Shown here one piece after another: positions 44,785-63,996 of a DNA stretch of 64,000 nt. Below the pieces are notes generated by a model. That model made no database searches. It saw nothing but the letters and a program-made list of their open reading frames with translations, and was not told the DNA's origin. The position numbers and the translations under genes are program-made. Where the stretch lies: contig NZ_AP023257.1 of NCBI RefSeq assembly GCF_016756595.1, positions 6,464,001 to 6,528,000 on the forward strand, in the 5' to 3' direction. The DNA comes from Mesorhizobium sp. L-2-11. Its GTDB lineage: Bacteria; Pseudomonadota; Alphaproteobacteria; Rhizobiales; Rhizobiaceae. Positions within the stretch are counted from its first letter, which is position 1, and each line of letters starts with the position of its first letter.

Positions 44785-44801
44785 ACGGCAGGAGAAATGC
44801 A

Positions 44802-46019: not shown

Positions 46020-46057
46020 CCATCGCCGAGCCATGCCAAGACAATGGAGGCAGCGCT

Positions 46058-46303: not shown

Positions 46304-46514
46304 GTGGAATCGACGAGACGTGGCCCCACACCGCAAAGCAAGATGTCCGGCCGCTTCCCTGCCAACCTCCTCTCCGGCATCGAGACCTCAATGACACGCA
46401 CGCGACACGTGAAGTTCGTCTCCGTTCTGGCTTCTTCAGTTGCCGATCGGTTCGACCTTGCACGCACCTAGAGGCACGAAACGCCTCTTCCAATCTCAAA
46501 TTTGCGACAGAGCG

Positions 46515-47054
46515 ATGGGCCAGGCAAAAATCACCGAACTGCGCGACCGCGAGGCGATCCGCGACTGCCTTTATCGGTACTGCCGCGGCATAGACCGCGC
46601 GGATGAGGCTGCGCTGCGCAGTGCATATTGGCCCGATGCGCATGACAATCACGGTGCCTATCGCGGCTCAGCCGAGGGCTTCTTTGAGTTTGCGCTTGGT
46701 CTCTTCAAAACCGGACCGCGCTTAATCCACCAGATCACGAACGTCTTGATCGAATTCATCGACCCGTCGGAGGCCGTGGTCGAAAGCTATTTCACCGCGC
46801 TGCAACGCGGACCAGACAATGACGGAGAAGCACGCCAGGTGCTTCTCTGCGGCCGTTACTGCGATCTTTTTCAGAAGAGGGAAGGGGCGTGGCGCATTGC
46901 CGAACGGACCGTCGTTTACGATTGGCTCGAAGAGCAGACCCCACCAGCGGTCCCCGAGGCAGAACGGTTCGGCTTGCGGCAACCGATCGGAGCAGCGCAT
47001 CCCAATGACCCGGTTTACGCGCTCAGGAAGCGCCGCAGCTCGTCATCAAAATGA
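46515..47054 (+). CDS. SnoaL/NTF2-like protein
   Basis: A 179-residue protein with the NTF2-like pattern: [86 protein letters not shown]. This is the SnoaL_4 type, seen in isomerases, dehydratases or hydroxylase-related enzymes acting on small organic molecules. It lies 211 bases after the ferredoxin, in the same direction. The role in the pathway is not known. Confidence 0.85.
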
Positions 47055-47237
47055 AAATGCCATGCATGTCACCACAATGCTTTCCAAGGCTCCCAATTGC
47101 GGAGCCGCGTCGCGGGAGCGGTCGCGGAACGCAACACGTCTACCCGGTATGGAAACTCGCCGTCACCAGGACGTCCGCGACCGGTCTTGCGGCTGACTCG
47201 CGTCGATATCTCTGACGCTGGCTGCGGAGAGGTTCAT

Positions 47238-48878: not shown

Positions 48879-49128
48879 GACTGCGGCTGCATGGAACGTG
48901 CCAAGCGCGGCTTGCCAAGTGATCGTCTTCATCGGTGACGGAAAACTCGTCATCAGGGTCGAATGACTAGCCAGGTTTTGGCGCTTGCCTGCGGCCGCCG
49001 AACGATAAGCGGCTTTGCGCAAGATCGTCGACTACGTCGTCGCCAGGCCGCATCGATACCGCGACCCACCCGCAATCGGCACAAGTCGAAGGCTTGATTG
49101 GCCACTTTGTGTAAACGAGGGACACGCC

Positions 49129-50172
49129 ATGGAATTCGCGACGTTCATCTTGGCGGCCCAGCGAGGCTATCATCAATCGTGCGACAGCGTCATCGGTAAC
49201 TCCATTGAACAGACAATCGCTTCGGAGCAGGCTGGCTTCAACACCGCTTGGTTCGCCGAGCACCACTTCAACAATTACAGCCTGGTTCCCTCGCCCTTGA
49301 TGATGGTGGCGCACTGTGCTGGCCTTACGAGCACCATTCGCCTTGGCACCGGTGTGTGTGTGCTGCCGCTATATCAACCGCAGCGCCTGCTCTCCGAGAT
49401 CGGCTTTGCCGAGATCGTTTCGAACGGCCGCCTCGAACTCGGCGTCGGCTCGGGATACCAGCAGTTCGAGTTCGAGCGCTTCGGCGTCGATGTCGATCAG
49501 GCGCCGGCCGTGTTTGCGGAATACCTGGATATCCTTCTCAAGGGCCTTAACCAGAAGGTCTTCGAGCACAATGGCCAGTATGAGAAGATACCTTTAACGG
49601 CGATTTCGCTGCGCACCATCCAAAGGCCAGCCCCACCGATCTGGATCGCCTGCGGGTCCGCGCGAAGCATGTGCCGGGCCTATCGTGAGGGCCACAATCT
49701 TTTCGTCACGGCGTTCCACAACGGCTTGGAAAACTTAAGAACGCTGCGTGAGACCATCGAGGCAGCAGCGGCCTCGCGGGGTAAGGATGTCACCGCCGCC
49801 AAGATAGGGCTTCTGCGCTGCTGCTATGCCAGCGACGATCAGGCGGAGATCGACAGCTATCTCGACAACGCCCGCTTCCAGCGCCGGCTATCTGAAGCAC
49901 TTCATCAGCGCCGCCAGCAGAGCCGGGACGGCTATCTGCTGCAGGAAACACCGACGCAGCAGGATCTGTCGTTCGAGACCATGCGCCAGAACCTGCCGAT
50001 CGGCAGCGTAAGTCGCGTCATCGATCGCCTGCTGGAAGAGATAAGTATCCTGAAGCCGGACCAGATCGCAATTCAGACCCAATTGGGAGATTTCGACCAA
50101 AAGACGATGCTACGCCAGATTGAGCTCTGGGGAGACAAGATCATCCCATCGATCAACAAGTCGCTTGGTTAG
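49129..50172 (+). CDS. Luciferase-like flavin monooxygenase
   Basis: Bacterial-luciferase-like monooxygenase of 347 residues (MEFATFILAAQRGYH), using reduced FMN and O2. Seen: EQAGFNTAWFAEHHFNNYS, RLGTGVCVLPLYQPQRLLSE, GRLELGVGSGYQQFEFERFGV and PPIWIACGSARSM. GAGGG precedes the ATG at 49129. It is the last gene of the P450 group; a 250-base gap separates it from the SDR. Confidence 0.9.
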   Translation: MEFATFILAAQRGYHQSCDSVIGNSIEQTIASEQAGFNTAWFAEHHFNNYSLVPSPLMMVAHCAGLTSTIRLGTGVCVLPLYQPQRLLSEIGFAEIVSNGRLELGVGSGYQQFEFERFGVDVDQAPAVFAEYLDILLKGLNQKVFEHNGQYEKIPLTAISLRTIQRPAPPIWIACGSARSMCRAYREGHNLFVTAFHNGLENLRTLRETIEAAAASRGKDVTAAKIGLLRCCYASDDQAEIDSYLDNARFQRRLSEALHQRRQQSRDGYLLQETPTQQDLSFETMRQNLPIGSVSRVIDRLLEEISILKPDQIAIQTQLGDFDQKTMLRQIELWGDKIIPSINKSLG

Positions 50173-50429
50173 GTCAAGGCTTGAAGTTCGGAACGGCCAC
50201 TGGGGGAGCTGAAATCTCGCATGCCGATGCTCGACACTTCGTCCATGAGGCATGGATAAATAATCAAGCCGACCGGCGATCACCGGGATCGAAGACCAAC
50301 GTCGTCCGTCCTTGCCTGCACGGACCGCCGGTCTTCCGCTCCCTGGCCATCTCGCTTGAGACCGTTGATCGGCAGCCTCGGAACGGCCGCCATGGCGTAG
50401 ACGAATAGCCACTCCCGCTACCCCTCTTG
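50173..50429. other. Gap between luciferase-like gene and the phosphonate promoter
   Basis: About 250 bases with only non-descript open frames on both strands. No gene, hairpin terminator or repeat is clear until the NifA-site block that starts near 50430. Confidence 0.35.
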
Positions 50430-50449
50430 TGTCCGAAGTTGGACGAGGA

Positions 50450-50545
50450 TGTCGGAAGCCCGACAAATGTCGAGAGGGGACCTGGCCCGCCGGTATGGAG
50501 AACTGGTGCGGCGCAGGTGGTTCGCCAATTCGGCACGCGCCTTGC
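50450..50545 (+). promoter_or_regulatory. NifA site and sigma-54 promoter of the phosphonate operon
   Basis: TGT-CGGAAGCCCG-ACA (50450-50465) is an exact NifA site with an added near-match just before it (TGT-N10-ACG, 50430-50445). About 66 bases on, CGGCACGCGCCTTGC (50531-50545) gives GG-N10-GC with TTGC at -12 and one mismatch in the -24 half (CGGCAC). It points to the PEP mutase gene, whose ATG is 134 bases downstream. Confidence 0.75.
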
Positions 50546-50679
50546 TTCATTGATTCTGTATGTGTGCACGACAGTGGCAGATCGCCGATCGGTGGGCAGA
50601 GCGGTTCGCCTCTGAAAGTACTTCGTCGGCAGCGATGACAGGCTTGTCGGCTGGACAGCGTCGGTGGAGGTGAGACCGC

Positions 50680-51588
50680 ATGGTGGAGAGGCAGTCTGGT
50701 GCGCAGACGCGAGAGAGCTTGCGCCCAATGATCGCGTCCAGTGAACTCGCCTTCGCAATGGAGGCTCATGACGGCCTTTCGGCGGCGATTGCCGAGCGCG
50801 CTGGCTTCAAGGCGCTCTGGGCGTCCGGCCTCTCGATTTCATCCAGTCTCGGATATCGAGATGCGAACGAAGCTTCCTGGTCCCAACTCGTCGATGTCGT
50901 TGAGCGAATTTCCGACACGGTGGACATTCCAGTCCTCGTCGACGGGGACAGCGGGTTCGGGAACTTCAACAATGCCCGTTTGGTCGCCCGCAAGCTGCGC
51001 CAACACGGCGCGAGCGGCATATGTCTCGAGGACACGGCGTTCCCGAAAATGAACTCGTTCATCGGTGATCGGCACCCGTTGGCCGATATTCCCGAGTTCT
51101 GCGGCCGGCTTAAGGCGGTGAAGGATCAAGTGCCGGATGCGGAGTTCGTTCTGGTCGCCCGGATCGAGGCGCTCATCGCCGGCCGCGGAGAGGATGAGGC
51201 GCTGGCGCGAGCACAAGCCTACGCTGAGGCCGGCGCCGATGCTATTCTGATTCATTCCCGCAAGTCCAACGCTGAGCAGATTTTCGCCTTCACGCGCGCC
51301 TGGCAGAACCGCCTTCCGGTCGTGATCGTGCCTACGAAATATTACCGCACACCGGTCTCCGCGTATCGGGCGGCCGGAATCTCCACGGTCATCTGGGCGA
51401 ACCACAACATGCGCGCGGCGATATCGGCCATGCGCCAGGTCTGCGACCGCATCCTCTGCGAAGAAAGTACCGCCGGTATCGAGGACGAGGTGGCGACGCT
51501 CGACGAACTCTTCGATCTGCTCAATTACCAGGAACTCTCAGCGGCGGAAGAGAAGTATCTGCCGCAGACGGCGACCGGCGTGCGATAG
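50680..51588 (+). CDS. pepM: Phosphoenolpyruvate mutase
   Basis: Forms the C-P bond by converting PEP to phosphonopyruvate, the entry to phosphonate synthesis. 302 residues of the isocitrate-lyase/PEP-mutase superfamily. Seen: KALWASGLSISSSLGYRDAN, the Mg site VDGDSGFGNFNNARLV, and the mutase loop EDTAFPKMNSF (E117 to F127). The canonical loop is EDK-X5-NS: here the K is T but FPK and NS, which separate mutases from lyases, remain. GGAGG lies 9 bases before the ATG. First gene behind the NifA-type promoter. No phosphonopyruvate decarboxylase gene is found in the window. Confidence 0.92.
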   Translation: MVERQSGAQTRESLRPMIASSELAFAMEAHDGLSAAIAERAGFKALWASGLSISSSLGYRDANEASWSQLVDVVERISDTVDIPVLVDGDSGFGNFNNARLVARKLRQHGASGICLEDTAFPKMNSFIGDRHPLADIPEFCGRLKAVKDQVPDAEFVLVARIEALIAGRGEDEALARAQAYAEAGADAILIHSRKSNAEQIFAFTRAWQNRLPVVIVPTKYYRTPVSAYRAAGISTVIWANHNMRAAISAMRQVCDRILCEESTAGIEDEVATLDELFDLLNYQELSAAEEKYLPQTATGVR

Positions 51589-51635
51589 CAGGCCCAGCCC
51601 GTCTTTTGAAAAGCAAAACGAAAACGGGAGCGCAC

Positions 51636-52826
51636 ATGCTTGCGCATCGGACAAACCTGTTTGGCACATCGAGTACCGCCGCGGCGCGCGCTGCCGCAAA
51701 AGCGGCGGCCGATGCTGGCAAGGAGATCATCGATCTGACCGCCGGCGAGATCTGGAGCGAGCTTCCTCCCACGATTCGCGACGGCGCGATCGATGCCATC
51801 AATAAGGGCGTCAATCGCTACACCGATACGCTTGGCATGGTGGAGCTGCGCGAGGCACTGGCGCGGAAGATCTCCCTCGATACCGGACAGATCTGGAAGG
51901 CCGAGGAAGTTGCCGTGACGTCCGGAGCGAAGCAGGCCTTGTTCAATGCCGCAATGGTGCTGCTGAACCCGGGCGACGAGGTCATCATCCCGGCGCCTTA
52001 CTGGACAACGTTTCCGGCCCAGGCGCTAATCGCCGGCGGCACACCGGTCTTCGTCGACACCAAATCCAATGGTTACGTCCCGCGCCCCGAGCACATCAAG
52101 GACGCGGTCACTGAGCGCACGCGGGCGATCGTCATCAACACGCCCAGCAATCCGGCCGGTGCGGTTTACGATGTTGAGACCATGATGGCCATCGCTCAAT
52201 TGGCGGTCAGCTGCAACCTGTGGATCATTTTCGACGAGTGCTATGGCGACTTCGTGCATGGGGATCATACCCACCATCCGATCGTCTCGGTCGCTCCCGA
52301 AATTCGAGCACGCGCGCTGATCGTCAATTCCTTCAGCAAATCACTGGCATTGACCGGCTGGCGCATCGGTTATCTGGCGGGTCCAAAAGAGGTGATCAAT
52401 GCCGTCAAGGCCCTGCAATCGCACACTACCTCGAATCCAAACGTAATTGCCCAGCACGCGGTACTCGCCCATTTGCAAAGGGGCGGCTCGGACTATGAAA
52501 GCAAGCTGCGTTCACGCCTGACAAGCGCCAGACGGGCTGGCCTCGACGTGCTTTCTTCATTGATGCGTGTACTGGTCGCCAGGGCGCAAGGGGGTTTTTA
52601 TTTCTATCTCGACCTTTCCCATCTGCTGCGACCGGGATCGGAAGACTGCGCCTCAACGACAGCCGACGATATCGTGACGGCTCTGCTTGCCGAAGCTGGC
52701 GTCGCAGCTGTGTCGGGCACCGCGTTCGGTGACCCCGCCGGCCTGCGCCTGTCCTATGGAATTCCACCTGAAAAACTCGCGACCGGCCTGGCCCGGCTCG
52801 TCGAATTCCTCAACGCCTGGAAATGA
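51636..52826 (+). CDS. Class I aminotransferase, likely for phosphonopyruvate
   Basis: PLP aspartate-aminotransferase-like enzyme of 396 residues; ATG 51636 follows GGGAG. Seen: VTSGAKQALFNAAMVLL, APYWTTFPAQ, NTPSNPAGAVY, the PLP lysine in NSFSKSLALTGWRIGYL (about residue 240). It is 47 bases after pepM. With no decarboxylase around, transamination of phosphonopyruvate to phosphonoalanine would be the simplest way to pull the unfavourable mutase equilibrium; that substrate is inferred. Confidence 0.88.
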   Translation: MLAHRTNLFGTSSTAAARAAAKAAADAGKEIIDLTAGEIWSELPPTIRDGAIDAINKGVNRYTDTLGMVELREALARKISLDTGQIWKAEEVAVTSGAKQALFNAAMVLLNPGDEVIIPAPYWTTFPAQALIAGGTPVFVDTKSNGYVPRPEHIKDAVTERTRAIVINTPSNPAGAVYDVETMMAIAQLAVSCNLWIIFDECYGDFVHGDHTHHPIVSVAPEIRARALIVNSFSKSLALTGWRIGYLAGPKEVINAVKALQSHTTSNPNVIAQHAVLAHLQRGGSDYESKLRSRLTSARRAGLDVLSSLMRVLVARAQGGFYFYLDLSHLLRPGSEDCASTTADDIVTALLAEAGVAAVSGTAFGDPAGLRLSYGIPPEKLATGLARLVEFLNAWK

Positions 52827-52856
52827 CACCGCAACAAAACGAAAGAGGTGAATGAG

Positions 52857-53675
52857 ATGCCTCCCGCTGCTCCCAGGAAAGCCGTCATTCTCGCTGCCGG
52901 CTTCGGCTCCCGCCTGCGTCCGCTGACCGATCTGTGTCCCAAGCCCCTCGTCGAAGTCAACGGCACACCGATACTTCACAATGCACTGTGGAACCTTCAG
53001 ACGGTGGGAGTTGAAGAGGTGACGATTGTTGTCGGCTATCGCAAGGATGCCATTCGCCATGCCTGTGGCGAACGCTTCGGCAGAGTTGAAATCAACTATG
53101 TCGAGTCCTCGGTCTTCGACAAGACAGGGAGCGCGTACTCGCTCTGGCTGGCACGCGACACGCTTCTTTCCGGCGACTGTTATCTCCTCGAAGGTGACGT
53201 CTTCTTCGAAGAAGATGCACTGCGCCACCTGATCAGGGTCGAGGCGCCCAATGCCGCTGCGGTCGCGCCCTTCGATCCATCCATGGAAGGATCCGCGGCC
53301 GTCCTTTCCAGCGACGGCTTCATATCCGAAGTCCGGTTGAAGCAGACGGCGGCAAATCTGGCATCAGGCACCCCGGTGCTCTTCAAGATGATGAACCTCA
53401 TCCGGTTCTCTGGCGCCGAACTCCAAACGGTGATCGTCCCGGTCCTCCACGACCTGATCGGCTCGGGCGCAATCAAAGCCTATACCGAGGAGCTGCTCGC
53501 GCATCTCATCGAGCAGCGCGGACTGCAACTCGCCGCGGCGCGATGTGACGATTTGCGATGGTACGAGATCGACAGTGAACAGGACCTGCGGGTAGCGGAA
53601 AGGATTTTCGCCTTCGAGCGACCTCACAGACATAGTGCCGACGCGCCGGCCGCCGTGGCGGGGGTAGGAGGATGA
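52857..53675 (+). CDS. Sugar/alcohol-phosphate-type nucleotidyltransferase, likely CTP:phosphonate cytidylyltransferase
   Basis: A 272-residue NTP transferase with the signature LAAGFGSRLRPLTDLCPKPLVEVNG (in part; about residues 12-36), VVGYRKDAI, metal site LLEGDVFFEEDAL and a C-terminal WYEIDSEQDL. It resembles LicC/PntC-type cytidylyltransferases that activate phosphocholine or aminoethylphosphonate as CMP derivatives. The ATG at 52857 follows AGGTG; a GTG at 52848 is possible. Overlaps the next gene, a CDP-alcohol phosphatidyltransferase, by 4 bases, so the two probably act in sequence. Confidence 0.85.
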   Translation: MPPAAPRKAVILAAGFGSRLRPLTDLCPKPLVEVNGTPILHNALWNLQTVGVEEVTIVVGYRKDAIRHACGERFGRVEINYVESSVFDKTGSAYSLWLARDTLLSGDCYLLEGDVFFEEDALRHLIRVEAPNAAAVAPFDPSMEGSAAVLSSDGFISEVRLKQTAANLASGTPVLFKMMNLIRFSGAELQTVIVPVLHDLIGSGAIKAYTEELLAHLIEQRGLQLAAARCDDLRWYEIDSEQDLRVAERIFAFERPHRHSADAPAAVAGVGG

Positions 53676-54271
53676 TCCGCTATCTGTTCGACGCTGCAAA
53701 TGCCATTACAGCCCTTGGGCTGATATTGGCCACCACGGCGATCTACTTTGCTTTGATCGGGCGCTTCGAGATTGGCATCTGTTTCGGCTTGTGGGCTCTT
53801 TTGGCAGATGATGCCGACGGCATGGTCGCGAAGAGTTCCCCGAACCGGTCCGCTTTGATGGCACAGCTGGGTGGCGCGTTGGACGGGCTGCTTGATTTGG
53901 TCTACGCAGCCGTCTTTCCAGCGGTTCTGATTTTGTCCTTCAACGCGTTCTCCGTTCTCGCATTGTTGGCTGCCAACTGCCTCATCCTGTCAGGGGCTCT
54001 GCGCCTCAGCTATTTTTCGACGTTCGGACTGGACGCTGACGGATTCGGCAGAGGATTGCCGTTGAACAATAATCTCTTCGTGTTGGCGTTCCTCTTCGTC
54101 GCCGACCATCACTTGCCGGTGCAAGGCCTTGGCAACCTATTGATCGGTGCAGGGTTTGTGCTGTCGGTCCTGCATCTTTCAAACTTCAAATTTCCAGGTA
54201 CCGGCAGTGCGTTGCGCTTGGGTAACCTTACACTCGCCGCAGCCGGATCTGTCGCCTTACTCACAAAGTGA
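53672..54271 (+). CDS. CDP-alcohol phosphatidyltransferase family membrane enzyme
   Basis: A 199-residue integral membrane protein with about five hydrophobic segments. The family signature is seen as LLADDADGMVAK then GGALDGLLDLV, i.e. D-X2-D-G-X2-A-K ... G-X3-D-X3-D; the usual arginine is lysine and the spacing between the halves is about four residues longer. Such enzymes move a phospho- (here perhaps phosphono-) group from CDP-alcohol to a lipid or polyol at the inner membrane. Coupled to the cytidylyltransferase gene. Confidence 0.85.
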   Translation: MIRYLFDAANAITALGLILATTAIYFALIGRFEIGICFGLWALLADDADGMVAKSSPNRSALMAQLGGALDGLLDLVYAAVFPAVLILSFNAFSVLALLAANCLILSGALRLSYFSTFGLDADGFGRGLPLNNNLFVLAFLFVADHHLPVQGLGNLLIGAGFVLSVLHLSNFKFPGTGSALRLGNLTLAAAGSVALLTK

Positions 54272-54301
54272 ATCAGTTTGCAGCTATAGGGAAGAGAATA
54301 C

Positions 54302-55216
54302 ATGGAAAACTCTTTCGAGGCCGAAACTCGCACCGTCTTTGATCGCTACCAGCGCCAGCAGGAGAATGACGACCACATATTCGACAGGTTGGTCTCTCTG
54401 ATCGAGGAGGAATATTTCGGCTTGCCTACCGGTAGCTTCCGCGGTCTTGATGTCCTGGACGCGGGCTGCGGCTCCAACGCGAATGCGTCCTATGCGTTTC
54501 TCGACAAGGGGGCACGAAACGTTGTTTCGCTTGAATTGAGCAATGATTGGATGGATTGCGCGCGCAAACGCCTCAGCCGATTTGGGCCGCGCTCGGAACT
54601 GGTCGCGGGCAGTGTGCTCGATCTGCCGTTTGACGACTTCAGTTTCGATTTTGTCCATTGCGCAGGGGTTTTGCCGCACACCAGCAATCCGAAAAAAGGC
54701 TTTGAAGAGCTTGCCCGTGTAACCCGCCCCGGCGGCAGCTTCTTTTTGACGATTATGGGCACCGCCAACGGCGTCATATACCGATGCATCAATCACTTGC
54801 GAGAACTCTACCAAAGCGACGAACAATTCCGCAGTTCCATTGACAATCTGGATGCATCCACCGCACGCGAAGCCATTAACTGGCTGTTGCGAATAAAGGA
54901 CGGCGAAGAGAAAGAATATATACCTGGCGAAAACGAATTCTTTCGGAGTCTTTTTGATGATGATTTGTTCGTGACGATCCGGGATCGTTTCCAGGCGCCG
55001 ACCTATCACGGGTTCGCATTCACAGAGGTGCAAATCCGAGGCTGGTATGGCGAGTGCGGCTTCGAGAAGATCCGCAGGATCTCAAGGTATACAAAAAATT
55101 TCCATAATCTTCGGCGCTTTCTCGCTCCGATGTACCGTCATTATGACCACCCGCTGGCCCGCTTCTGGTTCGGCGATGGCTGCATCCAGATGATCGGCGA
55201 CAAGCCGAGCACGTAG
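54302..55216 (+). CDS. Class I SAM-dependent methyltransferase
   Basis: A 304-residue methyltransferase: SAM motif I LDVLDAGCGSNANAS (about residues 50-64), acidic LELSNDW, motif II/III VLDLPFDDFSFDFVHCAGVLPH, and ARVTRPGGSFFLTIMG. N- or O-methylation of the phosphonate or its lipid is plausible but not shown. It is 30 bases after the phosphatidyltransferase and 32 before the next gene. Confidence 0.88.
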   Translation: MENSFEAETRTVFDRYQRQQENDDHIFDRLVSLIEEEYFGLPTGSFRGLDVLDAGCGSNANASYAFLDKGARNVVSLELSNDWMDCARKRLSRFGPRSELVAGSVLDLPFDDFSFDFVHCAGVLPHTSNPKKGFEELARVTRPGGSFFLTIMGTANGVIYRCINHLRELYQSDEQFRSSIDNLDASTAREAINWLLRIKDGEEKEYIPGENEFFRSLFDDDLFVTIRDRFQAPTYHGFAFTEVQIRGWYGECGFEKIRRISRYTKNFHNLRRFLAPMYRHYDHPLARFWFGDGCIQMIGDKPST

Positions 55217-55248
55217 TTGGCGTTATTCGTGCCAAGAGAGCGACCCCG

Positions 55249-57141
55249 ATGTGCGGAATCTTTGGGATAGTCCTCAAAAACGAGGGAACACCCGTTTGTG
55301 CTGAGGCCGTTGAGCGTTGCGCTGAGGCTCTCGCTCATCGCGGGCCTGATGCCAGCGGCCTATACATTGATCAATCGGTCGCATTCGCGCATCGACGGCT
55401 GTCGATTGTCGACGCTCATTCTCGCGCCAATCAGCCCTATCGCGATGACAATACCGGAGTGGTGGTGACGTACAACGGCGAGATATTCAACTATCGGGAA
55501 ATTAGAGCTGAATTGAGGGATATGGGTTTTTCCTTTTCGACGGTGTCCGACACCGAGGTTCTAATTCTTAGCTATATTGCTTGGGGAAAGTCATTCTTAA
55601 ACCGCCTTGACGGGATGTTTGCCTTCGCGCTTTTCGATCCCCGGAACTCGCTTGCTCTCATCGCCCGAGATCGTTTGGGGGTAAAACCCCTTTACTACAC
55701 GATCTGCGATCTTGGCCTTCTCTTTGCATCGCAGCCGAACGCTCTCATTCGCTGGCCGGGCGTGATACGCGGACCCGACATCATCGGCGCGCTCAGTTTT
55801 CTTTCCTATCGCGCGGTTGTCGGCGCCAGGACGCTGTTTGCCGGGATTTCCAAGTTAGAGCCCGGCCATCTCCTCGAAATAACAAACGGGCGACACACGT
55901 CGGAGCGTTGGTGGAATCTGTCCGAGCGCATTTCGCGATCGAAGCCGGACTATTCCGACATAAGGAGACTATTTGGAAGCGCCGTCGAACGTCAGCTGGT
56001 GTCTGACGTACCGGTCGCCGCATTGTTGTCCGGTGGACTTGACTCGAGCATCCTGGCCTATGAGGCATCCGCTCGCTCACAAATCCGTCCGATCTGCTAT
56101 ACCGGCAAGGTCGAGACCGCCGATTATGACGAGACGGCCTATGCGATGGAGGTCGCCGCTGAGTTCGGGCTCATTCACCGGGTCGTTCCAATCGGAGAAC
56201 CTTCCGACATCAACGCTGTGTCAGAGCTGGTTCGCCTGCGCGGACATCCACTTGGGATGCATAACGAAATCGCCATGTTTACGCTCGCAAAGGCGATTTC
56301 GAAGGAGCATAAGGTCGTCCTCACCGGCGAGGGTGCCGATGAGATTTTTGCTGGCTACAGCCGATTGTTCCGTACGCCGTATGATTACAATCGAAGCAAG
56401 ATCATCGCCGCATTACCACCTGCTCTTGCGCAGATCGCACGCCGACGCCTCGGACTCGGCGTCCATTGCAGTCAGCTGCAGTTCTTCCTGGAGCGCTACA
56501 GCTACTTCCCGACCGATGAAATCCGCTCGCTTGCTATCGATGGCCGGATACGAAGGGAGCACGAGATGGCTCTGTTCGATCACTTCTCGACTCAATTTGC
56601 AGAGGCCGGCGGAGATTTCTTTAGCAAGATCTCATATGTTCTCGTCTCTACGCATTTGCCCGCATTGCTGGAAATGGTTGACAACACCACAATGGCAGCT
56701 GGGCTTGAAGCTCGCGTTCCTTATACCGATCACCAGCTCGTTACCGCCGCAATGGCGATGCCCGGCTCACAGCGGTTGAGGTGGAGGTCTCCAATCGCTT
56801 CGGTCCAGGCACTGTGGCATCCGGTTGCTTCCTTCAGCGAACGTCTCGACGTCTCAAAATATCCCTTGCGAAGGGAATACCGGAGCGTCTTGCCCAGATC
56901 TGTTCTATCTCGCAAAAAGATGGGATTTCCACTGCCACTGGGTCAGTGGGCCGTTGGCGAGGGAGCAACGGAATATCGAAGGCTGCTGTTTGATAAGGAC
57001 TCTCCACTGGGAGATTTGTTCGATCCTGCTGCTTTGCGGCGTTGGTTCGAGGCCGGACGACGAAATCCTTCAGACTCGTTTGGTCGGAAGTGCTGGCTAT
57101 TGGCCAACCTTGGGATATTCTTCAAAGAGGTATTCTCATGA
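55249..57141 (+). CDS. Asparagine-synthetase-like glutamine-dependent amidotransferase
   Basis: A 630-residue AsnB-type protein. The N-terminal glutaminase begins MCGIFGIV with Cys2 as nucleophile, followed by HRGPDASG, LSIVD and YNGEIFNYREIR. The synthetase domain has the ATP loop LLSGGLDSSIL (about residue 260), GEGADEIFAGY (about 362) and the C-terminal RKKMGFPLPLGQW. In natural-product clusters such enzymes make amides on pathway intermediates, so it may amidate a phosphonate carboxylate; plain asparagine synthesis is possible too. Last gene of the run, followed by a hairpin. Confidence 0.9.
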   Translation: MCGIFGIVLKNEGTPVCAEAVERCAEALAHRGPDASGLYIDQSVAFAHRRLSIVDAHSRANQPYRDDNTGVVVTYNGEIFNYREIRAELRDMGFSFSTVSDTEVLILSYIAWGKSFLNRLDGMFAFALFDPRNSLALIARDRLGVKPLYYTICDLGLLFASQPNALIRWPGVIRGPDIIGALSFLSYRAVVGARTLFAGISKLEPGHLLEITNGRHTSERWWNLSERISRSKPDYSDIRRLFGSAVERQLVSDVPVAALLSGGLDSSILAYEASARSQIRPICYTGKVETADYDETAYAMEVAAEFGLIHRVVPIGEPSDINAVSELVRLRGHPLGMHNEIAMFTLAKAISKEHKVVLTGEGADEIFAGYSRLFRTPYDYNRSKIIAALPPALAQIARRRLGLGVHCSQLQFFLERYSYFPTDEIRSLAIDGRIRREHEMALFDHFSTQFAEAGGDFFSKISYVLVSTHLPALLEMVDNTTMAAGLEARVPYTDHQLVTAAMAMPGSQRLRWRSPIASVQALWHPVASFSERLDVSKYPLRREYRSVLPRSVLSRKKMGFPLPLGQWAVGEGATEYRRLLFDKDSPLGDLFDPAALRRWFEAGRRNPSDSFGRKCWLLANLGIFFKEVFS

Positions 57142-57152
57142 CGAATATCCGA

Positions 57153-57181
57153 GCCCGCAGGCGGTCGCTTGCGGGCATTTT
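57153..57181. terminator. Hairpin between convergent genes
   Basis: GCCCGCA (57153-57159) pairs with TGCGGGC (57170-57176) across a 10-base loop, and ATTTTA follows. It lies between the asparagine-synthetase-like gene and the convergent hydrolase gene, suiting a rho-independent terminator for the phosphonate operon. Confidence 0.6.
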
Positions 57182-58487
57182 ACAGAAGCCCCTTTGCCGA
57201 AAACGGGGCGTCGGACAATCCCAAGATCTGAGCAATGGTTGGCGTGAACTCTTCAGCGGAGCCCCAGGCAATATTGCAAGGTTCCATTCCAGGGATGCTC
57301 AACAGGCATATCCGATCGTCCTCCGCGCTGCCCGGTCGGAAACCGTGGGTGGACAAGTATCGAGGTCTGCCCGTCGGGCCAGCTTCTTGCGCGTCTCCAA
57401 CGGTCTCCTCGAAGGAGTGTCCAGGAGGTGCGACATAGGTCGCTATGCAATCGCGTTCATTTACCGGAACATGGTCGCTCGACCACGGCTCCACTTGGAA
57501 GCGCGCCAACAGTCCGTCTGCGATTCTGCGGTCATGAGCTCCGTCAACCAGGACATGGAGCGTCGCTCCTTCACTTTCCCAAAGCAAGTCAGGGATGATC
57601 GCATCCGGATAAATGGTTGTGTGGACGGCGCTATGTCCATGGTCACTTGCGACTACGATCGCGTAATCGTCTTCCCGCCCGACTCGCCTCAGTCCTTCGA
57701 TGAGAGCGCCAATCATCATGTCGGCCGCGGCGATAGACCAATGTGCCGCCTCGCTTTCGTATCCGAACTGATGCTGAATCGAATCCGTCATGTCGATCTC
57801 GGTCAAAATGAGATCAGGCGGGTTCTCCGAGCAAGCCAGCGCCCCTGCAGCCCCGATCATGAGATGATCCGCGGCCAGGCCCGCAACGAGAGGAGTGCTC
57901 GCAACGGTGTCACTACTGGACGGGAAGCCGAAGAGATCGAACACGCCGGCGGCTCGCAACCGTCCATTTGGATCTTTGATCATGCGCGAGCGAGCGATGC
58001 GGTTTTCGGGCAGGCTCTTAAATGACCGGCTTCCCTGGAGAAACCCTCGTTCCCACCAGGCCGGCACGAAGACATCGCAATCGGCTGGGTCGATCAACCC
58101 AGCGCCGATGGACGCGACATCAAGCCCGCTATTTTTGGCAAGCTTTGCAATGGTCGGAACCCGCAGATCAGACGCGTCGGCGCAGACAAACGAGCCATCT
58201 CGCACAATGTGGTTTCCGTAGATCCCGTTCGCTTGAGGCGCCGCGCCGGTTAGCATGCTTGCGCGCCCCGGCATCGACGTTCCCGGCACCGTTGAGCGCA
58301 GGCGAGTGATGGACAGACCGTCTCCTGCCAAACGAAGAAGCGTCGGCAACCGATGTTTGTGCTTTTCGAAATAGTCCGCGCTTACGCCGTCCATGAGGAT
58401 CAGAATCGCTTTCGTAGGAGCGCGCGGCTTTATCGAGGCAGGCGTCTGAAAACGAGCGGTAGGCCTGGATGGATTGGTGTAGGTCAT
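57180..58487 (-). CDS. Alkaline-phosphatase-superfamily hydrolase (phosphodiesterase/phosphonoacetate-hydrolase type)
   Basis: A 435-residue protein without an obvious signal peptide. Metal and nucleophile marks of the NPP/PhnA type: ILILMDGVSADY near residue 32, PGTSMPGRASMLTGAAPQANGIYGN (split nucleophile region, about 66-90), LTEIDMTDSIQHQFG and VASDHGHSAVH. Phosphonoacetate hydrolases share this layout. It is convergent to the phosphonate operon and divergent from the fusion gene at 58.65 kb. It may hydrolyse a phosphonate or phosphodiester linked to the product; the substrate is unknown. Confidence 0.82.
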   Translation of the reverse strand: MTYTNPSRPTARFQTPASIKPRAPTKAILILMDGVSADYFEKHKHRLPTLLRLAGDGLSITRLRSTVPGTSMPGRASMLTGAAPQANGIYGNHIVRDGSFVCADASDLRVPTIAKLAKNSGLDVASIGAGLIDPADCDVFVPAWWERGFLQGSRSFKSLPENRIARSRMIKDPNGRLRAAGVFDLFGFPSSSDTVASTPLVAGLAADHLMIGAAGALACSENPPDLILTEIDMTDSIQHQFGYESEAAHWSIAAADMMIGALIEGLRRVGREDDYAIVVASDHGHSAVHTTIYPDAIIPDLLWESEGATLHVLVDGAHDRRIADGLLARFQVEPWSSDHVPVNERDCIATYVAPPGHSFEETVGDAQEAGPTGRPRYLSTHGFRPGSAEDDRICLLSIPGMEPCNIAWGSAEEFTPTIAQILGLSDAPFSAKGLL

Positions 58488-58653
58488 GTTGCACCTGGAA
58501 GAGACCGATCGAAACCAAAGCCCCCTATAGGCTTCGGATGACGCCGGTATGAACGCATCACGGGATACTTCGAGCGCCAGTGGGTCGTTTTGATTTTGGG
58601 AATGGGCGCTTCTACGCGCTCTTTTTGTTTCCTTCAGAAGAAAGGAGTCCGAG

Positions 58654-60360
58654 GTGGCCGATACGACCCGTGCTATTTTTGTCCTCGATTTCGCAGGGCC
58701 AAAAATACATCTGTGGAGTGGCAGCTACGATGCGCCGTTGGTTCCTATCAACGGTCAGCCGCTCTTGGACCGTCTAGTCAACGCCTGTGTCGAAAACGGC
58801 ATTGAAGATGTCACTCTCGTTGAAAACTTGAGTAGCGGCACATTCGATGGGTTCCGCCTGCAGGACAGCACAAATACGCTTTCGTGGCACGACGCGCATG
58901 ACGGCGATCTCATTGAGAAGTTCCGCCAACATGATGGCGATACTCTCCTGATATGGGGAACACCGCTTTTCGACAGTGAGGTTCTTGACGGTATCAATAC
59001 CAACAAGGGTTTGCGCGGCTCCGCTTGGCGGCCCGACGCGCCGACCGGGATTTATCGATTGAGTGCTGATGTTCTACGCAATCTTCTGGCCGAAAGCCGC
59101 GCCGCGGCATCTCTGCATCAGGCCTTCAGCAGGTTAGTCGCGGGCCTGTCCCAGCTGGACGTAGCGTTGCCTGGCAATGTGCTGACTGCCGGCTCCAAGC
59201 TGCTCGATATTTGCGACGGTGTCGACGCATCCATCGCGGAATTTCGGTGTGACAAAGAGAACGTGCTGCGGCGTCTGGAAACGAGCGTCGGAGGTTATTG
59301 GCGCAAGCCAATCGCCGAGCACATGCTTCTTTGCAATACCCGCTTCCCTCCCAAGACTTTTTACGATCGGCTGGCGGCGAGGCTCGAGGGCGTGTTGACA
59401 TGCTATCCTTCTCAGCAGATCGATATCGCTTCAGTTGTTGGCACGATGACCTCGCAGCAGCCGGACTTTATTGCAGTCGGAAACGGGGTGACCGACCTCA
59501 TCCAGGCGCTCTATTCAACGCTGAACCCAACAATCGCGATTCCCGTGCCGACGTTCGCCGGCTTTCAAACACCTCTCGATGACGAACAAAAGAACAACTT
59601 CGTCCTCACCCCGCCCTATTTCGATCTCGACGTTCGAGCTTTCCTGGAATTCGTACTGGCGAGAGGCGCGGATACGGCAATCGTTGTAAATCCAAACAAT
59701 CCGACCGGTCGACTTGTTGATCATGCTGACGTGGCATGGCTGGCGGAGGCCCTAGGATCTCGAGGGCGACGGCTGATCGTGGATGAATCGTTCATTGATT
59801 TTCCCGCTGATGGCCGACCAAACAGCGTTGAGAATCTGGTTCCGTCCTGTGCCAATTTGATCGTGGTGAAGAGCCTTGGAAAGGCCTTCGGACTTGGCGG
59901 AATCCGGCTCGCCTACCTCATGGCTGGCGATCCCACCCTCGTTGCCGCCGTGCGCCGGAAACTGCCGCTGTGGAACATTAACGGCATTGCGGAATACACA
60001 CTGTTCCTGCTTCCCGAATTCGCAGAGGAATTGGAACACAGTCTAGAGATGTTGCGAGAAGATAGAGAGCTGTTCATCGAGGAGCTGCGGACGGTACCGG
60101 GCCTCGACGTCGTACCTTCGCAAACGAATTTCATCTTGTGCCGGCTGCCTGAAAATTCGGTATCCGCTGCCGAGCTCAAGCGCCGCCTCGTTCTGTTCGA
60201 ATCCGTCCTCGTAAGAGAATGCGGCTATCAAGCCATGAACGACGCAGATCGATATCTGCGCCTGACGGTTCGAAGTCGGACGGAAAACGAAAGGCTGGCA
60301 AAAACCCTGCGGCGCACCTTAAGCCGCTCAACGGCCTCTGAGAGTGACGCCCTGACGTGA
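58654..60360 (+). CDS. Nucleotidyltransferase-like domain fused to HisC/CobD-like PLP enzyme
   Basis: A 568-residue fusion starting at GTG 58654 with AAAGGAG six bases upstream. Residues 1-220 follow a nucleotidyltransferase fold (PLVPINGQPLLDRLVNACVENG) but lack the glycine-rich GXGXRL loop, so it is probably inactive or altered. Residues 230-555 are a class I/II PLP enzyme: GNGVTDLIQALY, VNPNNPTGRLVDHADV, DESFIDF and the lysine in VVKSLGKAFGLGGIRLAYL. DESFIDF recalls CobD (threonine-phosphate decarboxylase), the lysine loop recalls HisC. It faces the phosphonate genes and the fusion type recalls PntC (cytidylyltransferase-transaminase). Confidence 0.8.
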   Translation: MADTTRAIFVLDFAGPKIHLWSGSYDAPLVPINGQPLLDRLVNACVENGIEDVTLVENLSSGTFDGFRLQDSTNTLSWHDAHDGDLIEKFRQHDGDTLLIWGTPLFDSEVLDGINTNKGLRGSAWRPDAPTGIYRLSADVLRNLLAESRAAASLHQAFSRLVAGLSQLDVALPGNVLTAGSKLLDICDGVDASIAEFRCDKENVLRRLETSVGGYWRKPIAEHMLLCNTRFPPKTFYDRLAARLEGVLTCYPSQQIDIASVVGTMTSQQPDFIAVGNGVTDLIQALYSTLNPTIAIPVPTFAGFQTPLDDEQKNNFVLTPPYFDLDVRAFLEFVLARGADTAIVVNPNNPTGRLVDHADVAWLAEALGSRGRRLIVDESFIDFPADGRPNSVENLVPSCANLIVVKSLGKAFGLGGIRLAYLMAGDPTLVAAVRRKLPLWNINGIAEYTLFLLPEFAEELEHSLEMLREDRELFIEELRTVPGLDVVPSQTNFILCRLPENSVSAAELKRRLVLFESVLVRECGYQAMNDADRYLRLTVRSRTENERLAKTLRRTLSRSTASESDALT

Positions 60361-60414
60361 CATTTGCGCAGCGAACTGAATGGTCTTTTTTCGAATGCCG
60401 CGAGAGAGAGAAGC

Positions 60415-61206
60415 ATGTCGCTTAGTTACAATCGTCATAAAAGGCTCGTTGAAATCATCCAGGCGAATGGCGAAGTGCGCATCCGAGATTTGATGCAGCG
60501 GTTCAATATTTCAGAAGAGACTGCGCGGCGGGATATCAAACGGCTCGAGCAGGATGGCTTGGTCGCACGGGTCCATGGTGGCGCGGTCGCAACGCAACAG
60601 CCAAAGCTGCTGGCCATCTCATCGCGAGCTGTTTCCGAGCGCGCGGAAAAAAGCACCATCGCTGAGATCGCCCTGGGTCTTCTGAAGCCCGGTCAGAATC
60701 TCTTTTTCGGGGGCGGCAGCACCATTCTGTCGTTGGCCAGCCGCATATCGGCCCTGCCGGAAATGCGCGTCGTCACCAACATGGTTGATACTGCCATCGC
60801 CGCGGCCGAAGGCCATCGGCATCGCGTTGTCATGCTGGGGGGCGATTTCAATGTCGATTTCCGGACCGTAAGCGGATTCACCGCCTTGCGTACACTCCGC
60901 GAACAGCAGATCGACGTCGCATTTATCGGCGTCAATGCGGTGCATCCGAATGGCGTCTTCGACCATGAACAGGTCGGACAGGAGCTTGCTGCGACGCTCT
61001 GCGAGCAAGCACGGAAAATTGTCATTCTCGCCGATCACAGCAAATTCGGCTTGTCGGCGCGCTACCGCATCCTGCCCCATTCGGCGATTACCGCGATCAT
61101 CACCGACCGGAGGCCTGCATCGGACATGCTGGACAAGATCGAAGCCGCCGGTGTTGAAGTTCTATATCCGCAAAACCGTCACAACCCCGCACTGGTCTCT
61201 ACTTGA
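60415..61206 (+). CDS. DeoR-family transcriptional regulator
   Basis: A 263-residue repressor-type protein: N-terminal DeoR helix-turn-helix (HKRLVEIIQANGEVRIRDLM then NISEETARRDIKRLEQDG, about residues 6-45), GLVARVHGGAV, and a sugar-phosphate-sensor domain (FFGGGSTILSLASRI, GFTALRTLREQQIDVAFIGVNAV, ILADHSKFG). ATG 60415 follows GAGAGAG. It lies 54 bases after the fusion gene and before an ABC importer, and could control either. Confidence 0.92.
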   Translation: MSLSYNRHKRLVEIIQANGEVRIRDLMQRFNISEETARRDIKRLEQDGLVARVHGGAVATQQPKLLAISSRAVSERAEKSTIAEIALGLLKPGQNLFFGGGSTILSLASRISALPEMRVVTNMVDTAIAAAEGHRHRVVMLGGDFNVDFRTVSGFTALRTLREQQIDVAFIGVNAVHPNGVFDHEQVGQELAATLCEQARKIVILADHSKFGLSARYRILPHSAITAIITDRRPASDMLDKIEAAGVEVLYPQNRHNPALVST

Positions 61207-61339
61207 TCCTCTGCTTTCAGCCCGCACGGCTGCCCCAATTGTGAAACATTTTTTTCCTCTTGTTTTCAATAACCAACACAATCCGTCTCAAACCTGCAAA
61301 AAACCGTCACATAACTGCGCTATGTCTCAGCCCGTCTCG

Positions 61340-61360
61340 GGAGCGGATTTCATTCGCTCC
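61340..61360. promoter_or_regulatory. Inverted repeat before the ABC importer, possible DeoR operator
   Basis: GGAGCG (61340-61345) and CGCTCC (61355-61360) form a dyad around GATTTCATT, 37 bases before the substrate-binding protein ATG. It may be the site of the DeoR regulator encoded just upstream or a leader hairpin. Confidence 0.35.
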
Positions 61361-61396
61361 GATTGTCATCCCGACTGAAAGAGAGGGGATTTTGAT

Positions 61397-62959
61397 ATGC
61401 AAACGACACGTCGCAGATTTCTCGGCATGACCGCCATGGCGGCTGGCGCAATAGCATTGCCGAACACGATCATGGCGGCAACCGGCCGGCGGCCGAACCT
61501 CAATATTGCCGTTCAGGACCTGCGCACAATTCTGGAACCGGTGGACGGCTCCTCCATCGCCAACGTTTCCTGGCGGGTGCAATACAGCATTTTCGATCAG
61601 CTTTTACGGACCGACTACAACGACAATTTTCGCCTGAATTTCGCGCTCGCGACATCATTGAAGCAAATCGACGCCACGATCCATGAGATCACGTTGCGCG
61701 ACAATGTGAAGTTTCATGACGGTTCCACAATGACGGCGGATGACGTTGTCTTCTCGCTCGGGCCGGATCGACTGCGCGGCGAAAAAGCGCCGGGCGCGGC
61801 CGTGTTTGCCAACTTCCTCTCCTCGCTCGCCGATGTGCAGAAGATCAATGATCGCACTGTCCGTTTGATCACCAGGACAGAGGATCCGGTCTTCGCCCAG
61901 CGGCTCGGCGCCTGGGGCACGCAGATCATCAGCGCCAGGGCACGGGCTGGCGCCAGCAGCTACGACGCCTGGGCGGCGAAGCCGATCGGGACCGGCCCTT
62001 ACAAGATCGGCGAGGTCCGCAATGGGGACGAGATCACACTGGTGGCGCACGACGAATATTGGGGAGGCCAGCCGCCATTTGCCTCGATCCGCTTCAAGCG
62101 GCTGCCGGAAATCGCCGCGCGCATCGCCGGACTGAAGTCGGGCGATTACGATATCGTCACAGACATCACTCCGGACCACATTGCCGAAATTGAGGGAGTC
62201 AACGGCCTCTCGATTGTTGGTGGCGAAGCCATGTGGTTCCGCTTTCTCACATTTGCTCCGCTCAGGACTCCCATCCTGAAAGATGTCGATCTGCGTCGCG
62301 CGCTCGCTCTCGCTATCGATCGCGGTGCGCTGGCGGACGGCCTCTGGGACGGCCGGGCGAAAGCGCTGACCAGCTGGCAGCTACCGATCTTCAGCGAGAT
62401 CAACGACCCCGACCGCAAGGGGGTGTCCTATGATCCGGCGCAGGTCAAGGAACTGCTCGCCAAGTCATCCTACAGGGGCGAGGAAATCCCTTACCCTTCC
62501 GTCGGCACCTATTATCCGATGCAGCTCGCCGAGAACCAGGCGCTTGTCGAGATGTGGAAGGCTGCCGGGATCAACGTCAAGCTGATCATGTGTGAAAACT
62601 GGACGCAGGTCGGCGACATTGGCGGCATCAATGACACGTCCGGCGGCGCCTTCTACGCCGATCCCGTTTCCATGCTGTGGCAGATTATCGGTCCGACCAA
62701 TGACCTCCAGTCAACAGGCGGCTGGACCAATGCCGAGTTTAACGCGCTCGGTCACGAGCTTGAAACGACGACCGATCTCGCCAAGCGCCAGGCGGCCTTC
62801 AAACGGATGCAGGACATTGTCGAGATCGAGGACCCTTGCATCACGCCGCTGCACTCCATGCCCTTCATCTATGGGCAGAAGGCGGATGTCAGCTGGCAGC
62901 CCAACCCGTTGCCGCAAATGTATCTCGGTCCGAAGATGCCGCCTGAGCCGGTGGCCTGA
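61397..62959 (+). CDS. Peptide/nickel-type ABC transporter substrate-binding protein
   Basis: A 520-residue periplasmic family 5 solute-binding protein. The N terminus TTRRRFLGMTAMAAGAIALP is a twin-arginine signal peptide ending near AATG. Seen: the family segment KFHDGSTMTADDVVFSL, GTGPYKIGEV and RRALALAIDRGAL. The ligand may be a dipeptide, opine or similar small molecule. GAGAGGGGA precedes the ATG. It begins an importer operon that continues past the right edge. Confidence 0.92.
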   Translation: MQTTRRRFLGMTAMAAGAIALPNTIMAATGRRPNLNIAVQDLRTILEPVDGSSIANVSWRVQYSIFDQLLRTDYNDNFRLNFALATSLKQIDATIHEITLRDNVKFHDGSTMTADDVVFSLGPDRLRGEKAPGAAVFANFLSSLADVQKINDRTVRLITRTEDPVFAQRLGAWGTQIISARARAGASSYDAWAAKPIGTGPYKIGEVRNGDEITLVAHDEYWGGQPPFASIRFKRLPEIAARIAGLKSGDYDIVTDITPDHIAEIEGVNGLSIVGGEAMWFRFLTFAPLRTPILKDVDLRRALALAIDRGALADGLWDGRAKALTSWQLPIFSEINDPDRKGVSYDPAQVKELLAKSSYRGEEIPYPSVGTYYPMQLAENQALVEMWKAAGINVKLIMCENWTQVGDIGGINDTSGGAFYADPVSMLWQIIGPTNDLQSTGGWTNAEFNALGHELETTTDLAKRQAAFKRMQDIVEIEDPCITPLHSMPFIYGQKADVSWQPNPLPQMYLGPKMPPEPVA

Positions 62960-62964
62960 GTTCC

Positions 62965-63996
62965 ATGCTGCATAAGTCTTTCCAGGACAGCGCGGGCGCC
63001 GCGCTGTTGCCGGCCCATGACATCGGGGCTTCCGCCACCAAACCTGCCATCAGCATTGCTGGCTTGAGGGTGGCGTTCGGCGATGTGCCTGTGCTGCACG
63101 GTGTCGATCTCGCTGTGAACAAAGGCGAGGCCTTGGGTATCGTCGGCGAATCCGGCTGCGGCAAGTCCGTGACCTGGCGGGCGGTTCTTGGCCTGCTGCC
63201 GAAATCCGCCGAGATCGGAGGCGAGGCCAGGATTGGTGATCTCGATCTTGTGGGCGCACGACAATCCGTTTTGGATCGGGTGCGCGGCGGACGCATTGCC
63301 ATGATCTTCCAGGATCCGGCCAGCGCGCTGAACCCGGTGCATCGCATCGGCGCGCAGATCACCGAAGCGCTTCGCCTGCACCGGGGCCTCAGCGGTGCCG
63401 CCGCCCGAGCCGAGGCCTGCCGCCTGCTCGACCAGGTCGGCATAGCCACTGCGGCAAGCAGGCTCAACACCTACCCCCACGAACTGTCGGGCGGCCAGAA
63501 CCAGCGGGTGATGATTGCCATCGCGCTCGCCGGCCGGCCCGAACTGCTGATCGCCGACGAGCCAACGACCGCGCTCGACGCCACCGTGCAGGCGCAGATT
63601 CTGCTGCTGCTCAAAGATATTCAACGTGACACTGGCATGGCGCTGGTCATGATCAGCCATGATCTCGCCGCGGTGACGGCCGTCTGTGACCGGGTATGCG
63701 TCATGTATGCGGGCAAGATCGTCGAAACGGCGCCGAAACACACGCTTCTGACCGCGCCGGAACACCCCTATACACGCGACCTGATCGGTGCCATTCCGCC
63801 CTCGCACGGTCCGCGCATGCGGTTGACCGCCATTGCCGGCGCGCCGCCACAACGCAATCTGCCGCCGGGATGCGCCTATGCGCCACGCTGCCGGCACGCG
63901 ATCACGGCATGTGGCACGAGCCGACCGGAACCGCGGCAGGTCGCCGCGCGGCATTCGGTGCGTTGCCTTCGTTTGGACGCCGGCACGTATCAATGA
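62965..63996 (+). CDS. ABC transporter ATP-binding protein (DppD/OppD type)
   Basis: A 343-residue ATPase of the peptide/opine importer: Walker [12 protein letters not shown] (about residue 55), Q-loop [13 protein letters not shown], signature [15 protein letters not shown], Walker [14 protein letters not shown]-loop ISHDLAAV and the C-terminal oligopeptide extension with [13 protein letters not shown] and the cysteine pattern of that group. It starts 5 bases after the binding-protein stop. Its TGA overlaps an ATG at 63993, the likely start of the next transporter gene, cut by the window edge. Confidence 0.95.

Follow-up and report, generated by a model that had tools for sequence, protein, structure and literature searches.

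The operon considered here lies at 50680–57141, within the region 50430–60360 of a 64,000-nt stretch of DNA (hereafter the window) from the 7.4-Mb genome of Mesorhizobium sp. L-2-11, and its closest described counterpart is found in Mesorhizobium loti R7A. Sullivan et al. 2013 reported lacZ fusions to the R7A genes pepM (msi327), aatA (msi326) and asnB (msi323), and the values cited from that article are 827, 2456 and 862 Miller units, respectively, in 14-day nodules, 7.7, 16.2 and 22.0 units in nodules of a nifA2 mutant and <20 units in culture (PMC3538637). Nodule expression and NifA2 dependence of these genes have been known since 2013. In the parts of the article consulted, the three genes are listed among metabolic genes and grouped with those without a NifA promoter, direct activation being thought highly unlikely (PMC3538637); the word ‘phosphonate’ is absent from its main text. 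All six genes of the window operon are present at 95–98% identity in the R7A island copy (L058), behind the same promoter pair.

Other described systems resemble single aspects of the locus. In Streptomyces, the phosphoenolpyruvate (PEP) mutase PnaD and PnaA, of the aspartate aminotransferase (AAT) family, yield phosphonoalanine, PnaA being described as the coupling enzyme for the unfavourable mutase step (PMC11867202). The window operon likewise pairs PepM with an AAT-family aminotransferase in a genome without a phosphonopyruvate decarboxylase over the profile cut-off, but it adds a cytidylyltransferase, a CDP-alcohol transferase and a NifA-type promoter and no ATP-grasp ligase is among the classified window genes. 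The Pnt phosphonyl-tailoring clusters (PepM with PntC) share the LicC/PntC-type nucleotidyl activation (PMC6697681), whereas in the window the cytidylyltransferase is separate and unfused to PepM, and an aminotransferase replaces Ppd and the 2-aminoethylphosphonate transaminase. The palR-palB-palA-palCDE set of Variovorax sp. Pal2 (PMC10574752) is matched in many relatives by LysR, aminotransferase, phosphonopyruvate hydrolase and transporter genes lying together, but in these relatives the set has an operon for phosphonate synthesis as its neighbour, and often a phosphodiesterase gene as well, and the window genome itself is without PalA. Finally, the rhizopine system mos/moc of Sinorhizobium meliloti L5-30 is similar in its nodule-tied synthesis, in having, in many relatives, catabolism-type genes linked to it within one symbiotic element and in being dispensable for fixation (as judged from R7A), and differs in that the enzymes here are of phosphonate rather than inositol-derivative type, the window strain has no PalA and the genes also occur in strains without nifH. 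The mos and moc genes are closely linked, and mos has a nifH mosaic.

The central reading of this analysis, to which a probability of about 70% is assigned, is that the operon encodes a phosphonate pathway turned on in nitrogen-fixing bacteroids via NifA and sigma-54. The promoter and the six tightly packed genes are as follows.

50450..50465, + strand: NifA upstream activator-like site, TGT-N10-ACA (TGTCGGAAGCCCGACA), from a motif scan; exact in the R7A island copy
50530..50546, + strand: sigma-54 −24/−12 site (TCGGCACGCGCCTTGCT), from a motif scan; C replaces the consensus T at −25
50680..51588, + strand: pepM, PEP mutase (TIGR02320, 347.3 against a cut-off of 319.55 bits); ATG at 50680 after GGAGG
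51636..52826, + strand: aatA, aspartate-aminotransferase family, proposed phosphonopyruvate transaminase (PF00155; PDB 1j32, 250.3 bits)
52848..53675, + strand: LicC/PntC-like cytidylyltransferase (PF00483, PF12804; signature LAAGFGSRLRPLT..PKPLV intact)
53672..54271, + strand: integral-membrane CDP-alcohol phosphotransferase (signature and fold)
54302..55216, + strand: S-adenosylmethionine-dependent methyltransferase (PF08241)
55249..57141, + strand: AsnB-like glutamine amidotransferase, N-terminus MCGIFG (TIGR01536, 392.7 against 267.1)

The promoter has the layout expected of a NifA–sigma-54 operon, with the TGT-N10-ACA site (50450) 80 bases ahead of the GG-N10-GC element (50530). The single halves were rejected as evidence, as each is merely mildly enriched in the window (12 activator halves against 6.05 expected and four −24/−12 halves against 0.83), and only the spaced pair is counted: with a gap of 50–80 bases it occurs three times in the whole genome and not once in the reversed control. 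The −24/−12 core is unchanged in 28 of 28 window-lineage loci examined, some of which are the same strain twice, and the same pair, 81 bases apart, precedes pepM in the R7A island copy, which comes from strain CJ3Sym, described as carrying ICEMlSymR7A. In having C at −25 the promoter differs from the 16 that the R7A authors list, on which the scoring matrix was also trained, and this may explain why it was overlooked. No sigma-70-like promoter was found before pepM in 46.0–58.7 kb and no FixK box in the window. The preliminary description of this DNA, which had placed six packed genes behind a NifA/sigma-54 promoter, is confirmed on this arrangement; its link to NifA gains support from the published lacZ data together with the same promoter pair on the R7A island.

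The NifA dependence could instead be indirect, or could reflect read-through from a strong promoter 6.2 kb upstream, a consensus NifA promoter (TTGGCACGACTTTTGAA) at 44293 that precedes P450, SnoaL-like, double SDR and luciferase-like genes (44293–50172). The recognised genes from 44802 to 57141 are all on one strand, the upstream promoter scores 25.8 bits, and the published judgement on direct activation in R7A would agree with such an account. However, the R7A P450 gene behind that promoter (msi332) gave 447 units as against the 827 and 2456 of pepM and aatA (PMC3538637), the internal pair is rare with its core kept, and in other islands a NifA promoter stands immediately ahead of pepM in stretches that, as far as they were read, do not contain those upstream genes. 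Read-through or indirect control is considered unlikely.

Comparison among relatives adds to the case for control by NifA. The comparison used the best 80 of 229 related loci (L052–L131), with neighbourhoods read by similarity to a fixed query set, so that genes outside the set go unseen; the sets of genomes and of named loci overlap (L054 and L026, for example, are one strain), and their counts are not added together. A −24/−12 element with a score of at least 9 lies within 700 bases of pepM in 20 of these best 80 loci, accompanied in 10 by an exact activator site. The same stretches reversed gave four and none, respectively, and in 3896 tiles taken from these loci the counts were 276 and 31. 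Sixteen of the 20 positives sit 200–270 bases before pepM and all of these belong to Mesorhizobium or Aminobacter, with the exact activator site in 10 of the 16; the other four are weak lone matches farther upstream. The promoters before pepM fall into type A (that of the window), type B (TTGGCACGACTTTTGA and variants), type C (CTGGCATGG) and type D, a nifH-like pair at the single locus L149. Types A, B and C have no mutual blastn match at E 1e-5, type D lying outside this test. When the start-codon region of type B was compared by blastn with nifH leaders from five genomes, 14 of the 15 comparisons gave a match (E 4e-4 to 5e-10), and at five type B loci (L021, L022, L023, L146 and L066) pepM is in frame from a nifH-like start, MSDLLR or a variant, the protein start being identical between L022 and L146 and between L023 and L066. 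In a tree of 48 PepM proteins, types A, B and C each form one side of a branch and D is single; the labels NifA or none need four changes on this quick tree, of which the starred branches alone force two. A single clade of all NifA-type rows is rejected (p = 0.0005), and a constraint that unites A and B is not rejected (p = 0.204). The gene pepM has been placed under NifA more than once, once by in-frame fusion to a captured nifH leader. In L145 (genome G037), a separate NifA pair (CTGGCACGGTCCATGCA) belongs to an asnB-like gene that lies at 5.0–6.9 kb on the other strand, as expected if asnB acts in the same pathway as pepM, which suggests that the two are co-regulated there.

The enzyme families and the gene order, like the promoter pair, its conservation and its repeated capture, were established by sequence, profile or fold. 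The window PepM has the top score of its superfamily on the mutase equivalog model; its second-best model, phosphonopyruvate hydrolase, stays below cut-off (214.2 vs 374.4), the cut-off of the methylisocitrate lyase model is not reached, and the closest PDB match is the mussel PEP mutase (1m1b, 343.6 bits). The catalytic loop motif of PEP mutases is EDK-x5-NS. In the window protein the loop reads EDTAFPKMNS, with FPK and the mutase-type N/NS kept and T in place of the first K of EDK; the EDT variant is also present in L021 and EDK in L020. That PepM might be no mutase, and the cluster ordinary aspartate/asparagine chemistry in bacteroids, could draw on the gene names aatA and asnB and on the exchange of EDK for EDT, but it is opposed by the equivalog score, by the retained K and N of the loop and by the finding that most of the best 80 of 229 loci have both cytidylyltransferase and CDP-alcohol transferase genes close to pepM, and it is regarded as very improbable.

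With PepM as a mutase, the window genome holds the phosphonoalanine-type combination of PepM and an AAT-family aminotransferase without a phosphonopyruvate decarboxylase over cut-off (TIGR03297, best score 32.9 vs 312.5), and this points to phosphonoalanine. The cytidylyltransferase has 47 PDB matches, LicC (1jyk) and PntC (6pd1) among them, and its relatives carry the annotation phosphocholine cytidylyltransferase family. The CDP-alcohol phosphotransferase signature is DxxDGxxAR...GxxxDxxxD, and the product of 53672..54271 has both signature and fold; in the fold comparisons, VIA-align rows are a re-examination of Foldseek matches only. Together the two enzymes point to a phosphonate ester, either lipid or soluble. 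No ATP-grasp peptide ligase was found among the scanned genes of 50680–63996. In the proposed sequence of steps, PepM would convert PEP to phosphonopyruvate, the aminotransferase would convert this to phosphonoalanine and so pull the unfavourable mutase step, the LicC/PntC-like enzyme would activate the phosphonate with CTP, the membrane CDP-alcohol transferase would place it onto a hydroxyl to give a phosphonate ester, and the methyltransferase and amidotransferase would trim the product. We infer the substrates, the order of steps and the product from the enzyme families, and on this basis the bacteroids would make a CMP-activated, phosphonoalanine-derived phosphonate ester. The PEP mutase of the preliminary description is borne out, and its proposal that nitrogen-fixing bacteroids make a phosphonate molecule or phosphonolipid is supported in part, the probable product being refined to a phosphonoalanine-derived ester that may be lipid or soluble.

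Many relatives combine this pathway with a putative catabolic half. Across 146 Mesorhizobium genomes, the window-type pepM was identified in 41 (42 matched, but in one the match was to a PalA-type protein alone). In 26 genomes there is another PepM-like protein, of phosphonopyruvate hydrolase type, and 24 of these also have pepM (Fisher p 2e-14, for linked genes that are not independent). Two of five PalA-type proteins tested on TIGR02321 exceed the cut-off of 374.4 (389.7 and 395.2) and three are below (348.9, 358.9 and 367.1), while all five score higher on this model than on the mutase model; one of them, L050, is from another family of the order. The loop in L026, L033 and L050 is FPKVTS, as in the hydrolase 2dua (FPKDTS) and unlike FPKxNS. 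The PalA-like gene lies 5.1–24.5 kb from pepM in 23 of the 41 pepM genomes, and among 17 loci (16 genomes) with both halves readable, a LysR regulator and an ABC ATPase are present in 16, a palB-type aminotransferase in 12 and a phosphodiesterase, belonging to either of two unrelated families, in 10, with PalA alone in L149. A NifA pair or core precedes pepM in 10 of these 17 loci (L028 with the core only, L029 via L021 of the same genome), and none of the 17 has a NifA pair before recognised catabolic or transport genes. Further NifA pairs in these loci are a nifH promoter adjoining PalA (L028), the asnB pair of L145, a pair in L149 that is followed by unidentified genes and, among the biosynthetic genes of L155, a weak pair. 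Separate control of PalA and pepM makes sense, as the two enzymes, if expressed together, would form a futile cycle. Islands are not uniform in their tailoring genes and importers, and some clusters have an EamA transporter after asnB.

Beside the window operon are a phosphodiesterase, a DeoR regulator and a peptide-type importer, whereas C-P lyase is encoded elsewhere in the genome (phnJ, 490.7 bits).

57180..58487, − strand: NPP/PhnA-superfamily phosphodiesterase (PF01663; PhnA model 37.5 vs 407.55 bits, below cut-off)
58654..60360, + strand: degenerate nucleotidyltransferase-like N-domain fused to a CobD-like PLP domain (TIGR01140, 168.7 vs a cut-off of 290.55; PDB 6oux, 1lc5)
60415..61206, + strand: DeoR-family regulator (PF00455, PF08220)
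61397..63996, + strand: SBP_bac_5 binding protein and first ABC ATPase (family profiles), going on past the window

Genes for two permeases and a second ATPase of the importer follow outside the window (L024, 86–2750). The phosphodiesterase at 57180..58487 might open the phosphonate ester after uptake. The CobD-like fusion might decarboxylate the amino acid part. The N-domain of this fusion is comparable to the cytidylyltransferase (hhalign probability 66, E 5.5e-5) with its first motif lost. As the window genome has no PalA and no PhnX over cut-off but does have phnJ, the strain would need the C-P lyase route, in which this enzyme might act last.

The comparison with rhizopines is drawn because importer, phosphodiesterase and hydrolase genes are linked to pepM in relatives, which favours a small molecule that is re-imported. 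We tentatively propose an opine-like compound, made in nodules and imported and degraded outside by kin, though the odds are placed below even. At the same level of caution, symbiosis islands may carry a phosphonate rhizopine, into which bacteroids would divert PEP under NifA and whose use as a source of phosphorus, nitrogen and carbon would be open only to kin with the importer, the phosphodiesterase and either PalA or C-P lyase. The product might instead be a phosphonolipid or surface phosphonate, in which case the acceptor used by the CDP-alcohol transferase in bacteroid membranes would be diacylglycerol or a glycan and the donor the CMP-activated phosphonate. This would suit an integral-membrane transferase with phosphatidylserine synthase as its best fold match, and the bulk of bacterial phosphonate capacity is stated to serve surfaces (PMC6697681). 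The linked ABC importers with soluble binding proteins, the phosphodiesterases and the PalA-like hydrolases better fit a small soluble product, as does the EamA transporter of some clusters, and a membrane or surface product appears rather unlikely.

A third possibility is an antimicrobial or plant-active antimetabolite, for which PalA and the importers of relatives would provide self-protection or recycling. Many studied phosphonate natural products are inhibitors. Phosphonoalamides are reported to be antibacterial (PMC11867202), and the differing tailoring genes of the islands would be in keeping with such a function; but an ATP-grasp peptide ligase is missing from the classified window genes, and PalA would destroy the first intermediate and would need to be expressed at another time. 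An inhibitor is judged distinctly unlikely.

Across the genus, pepM occurs in 37 of the 100 genomes that have nifH (above cut-off in 97, as partial copies in 3) as against 4 of the 46 that lack it (p 0.0003). Among plasmid records, 82 have pepM (E 1e-70) and 35 have PalA; 14 of the 35 also have pepM, 6.8–33.6 kb away (among 60 of 71 pepM records, E 1e-90), while for the other 21 no pepM is among the matches listed (60 of 71), from which PalA also appears to occur alone. The Rhizobium gallicum plasmid pRGM101a has both halves between nifH and nifQ/nifS, with pepM lacking a NifA pair.

Several observations weigh against a NifA-switched phosphonate with an opine-like role. On the side of the switch, the window promoter scores 10.4 bits, below all 16 training promoters (17.2–25.8), and its activator site ends in ACC in 7 of 13 promoter haplotypes of the window lineage, being exact in 6 of 13 (alignment read by eye). 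The NifA pair is not universal either: among the best 80 of 229 loci, 16 of the 27 from Mesorhizobium or Aminobacter have the −24/−12 element and 11 have none, and some genomes with nifH (G048, G023, G056 and G004, for example) lack a NifA pair before pepM. It is absent in the Bradyrhizobium, Rhizobium, Sinorhizobium and Agrobacterium copies examined, and none was found before pepM in seven non-Mesorhizobium plasmid stretches (R. gallicum, S. meliloti, Bradyrhizobium, Agrobacterium), where L164 and L165 are without pepM; the claim for NifA is therefore restricted to Mesorhizobium and Aminobacter. On the side of the chemistry, the window PepM has EDT where the motif has EDK, and the nearest fold to the CDP-alcohol transferase is a lipid-making enzyme, phosphatidylserine synthase. 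On the side of the role, PalA (TIGR02321 type) is absent from the window genome, so that for this strain the catabolic half is no more than putative. The four nifH-less pepM genomes hold both the synthesis genes and PalA, with no NifA pair in the stretches read, from which it follows that the pairing did not arise only for symbiosis. The R7A pepM, aatA and asnB mutants were fully effective on the plant (PMC3538637), and the product would not be needed for fixation under those conditions. The literature examined contains no measurement of phosphonate in nodules, and full-text searches of the open literature aimed at it retrieved no account of root nodules synthesising phosphonate, with most subscription papers beyond their reach. 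Against the opine-like role, the missing PalA of the window strain, the nifH-less strains with both halves, the symbionts without the switch and the lipid-enzyme fold count most strongly.

Further features of the window and its relatives should be noted. Two additional NifA-type pairs are present on the + strand of the window. One (TTGGCGCGGCTTTTGCG, 37459–37475, activator 105 bases up) precedes an ABC exporter at 37641–39497 whose location and type make it a candidate for R7A exsA, a NifA2-dependent gene published without a NifA promoter (PMC3538637). The second (CCGGCACGGCGCTTGAG, 39685–39701, activator 106 bases up) precedes genes up to 41277 that are annotated fdxB-nifQ on a near-identical plasmid; the fdxB-nifQ cluster of R7A is NifA2-dependent and is said in the same source to be without a NifA promoter (PMC3538637). 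On the R. gallicum plasmid, SnoaL-like (NTF2), SDR, luciferase-like and ferredoxin genes also adjoin pepM. Immediately after the importer, L024 has a UvrD-like fragment, an AbiEii-like gene and a group II intron maturase (2.8–5.1 kb), which may be the end of the conserved block. No RNA family reached the gathering score within 44–64 kb.

Agrobacterium tumefaciens pAt2 (L159, 14.2–19.4 kb) has pepM, aminotransferase, cytidylyltransferase and CDP-alcohol transferase genes, with an ABC importer and a gene for a sugar-phosphate isomerase close by, and other plasmids of walnut strains have pepM matches similar to it. Agrobacterium vitis pAvCG78a (L132, 16.2–27.3 kb) was rejected as an opine parallel, as it holds a different cluster in which pepM is followed by a citrate-synthase-like gene; a transporter and, about 10 kb on, a second PEP-mutase-family gene are also present. 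In L042–L049 (order families f41 and f45), PepM is more distant (55–57% identity) and lies in far longer open frames of 551–748 aa, and L044, L046, L047 and L048 are probably PepM-PntC fusions, given that the cytidylyltransferase query matches directly behind PepM.

Three elements of this analysis are new and open to testing: a promoter that had gone unnoticed, its capture on several occasions and a catabolic half linked to pepM in many relatives. The view in print that pepM, aatA and asnB are only indirectly under NifA2 is reopened. Should the proposed role hold, the differences in tailoring genes and importers would look as if the specificity of producer and consumer were diversifying among islands. 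Such a phosphonate would represent a new use of the fixed carbon and phosphorus of the nodule and a second chemical class of rhizopine-like mediators, and it would offer a handle on the competition of inoculant strains with soil rhizobia.

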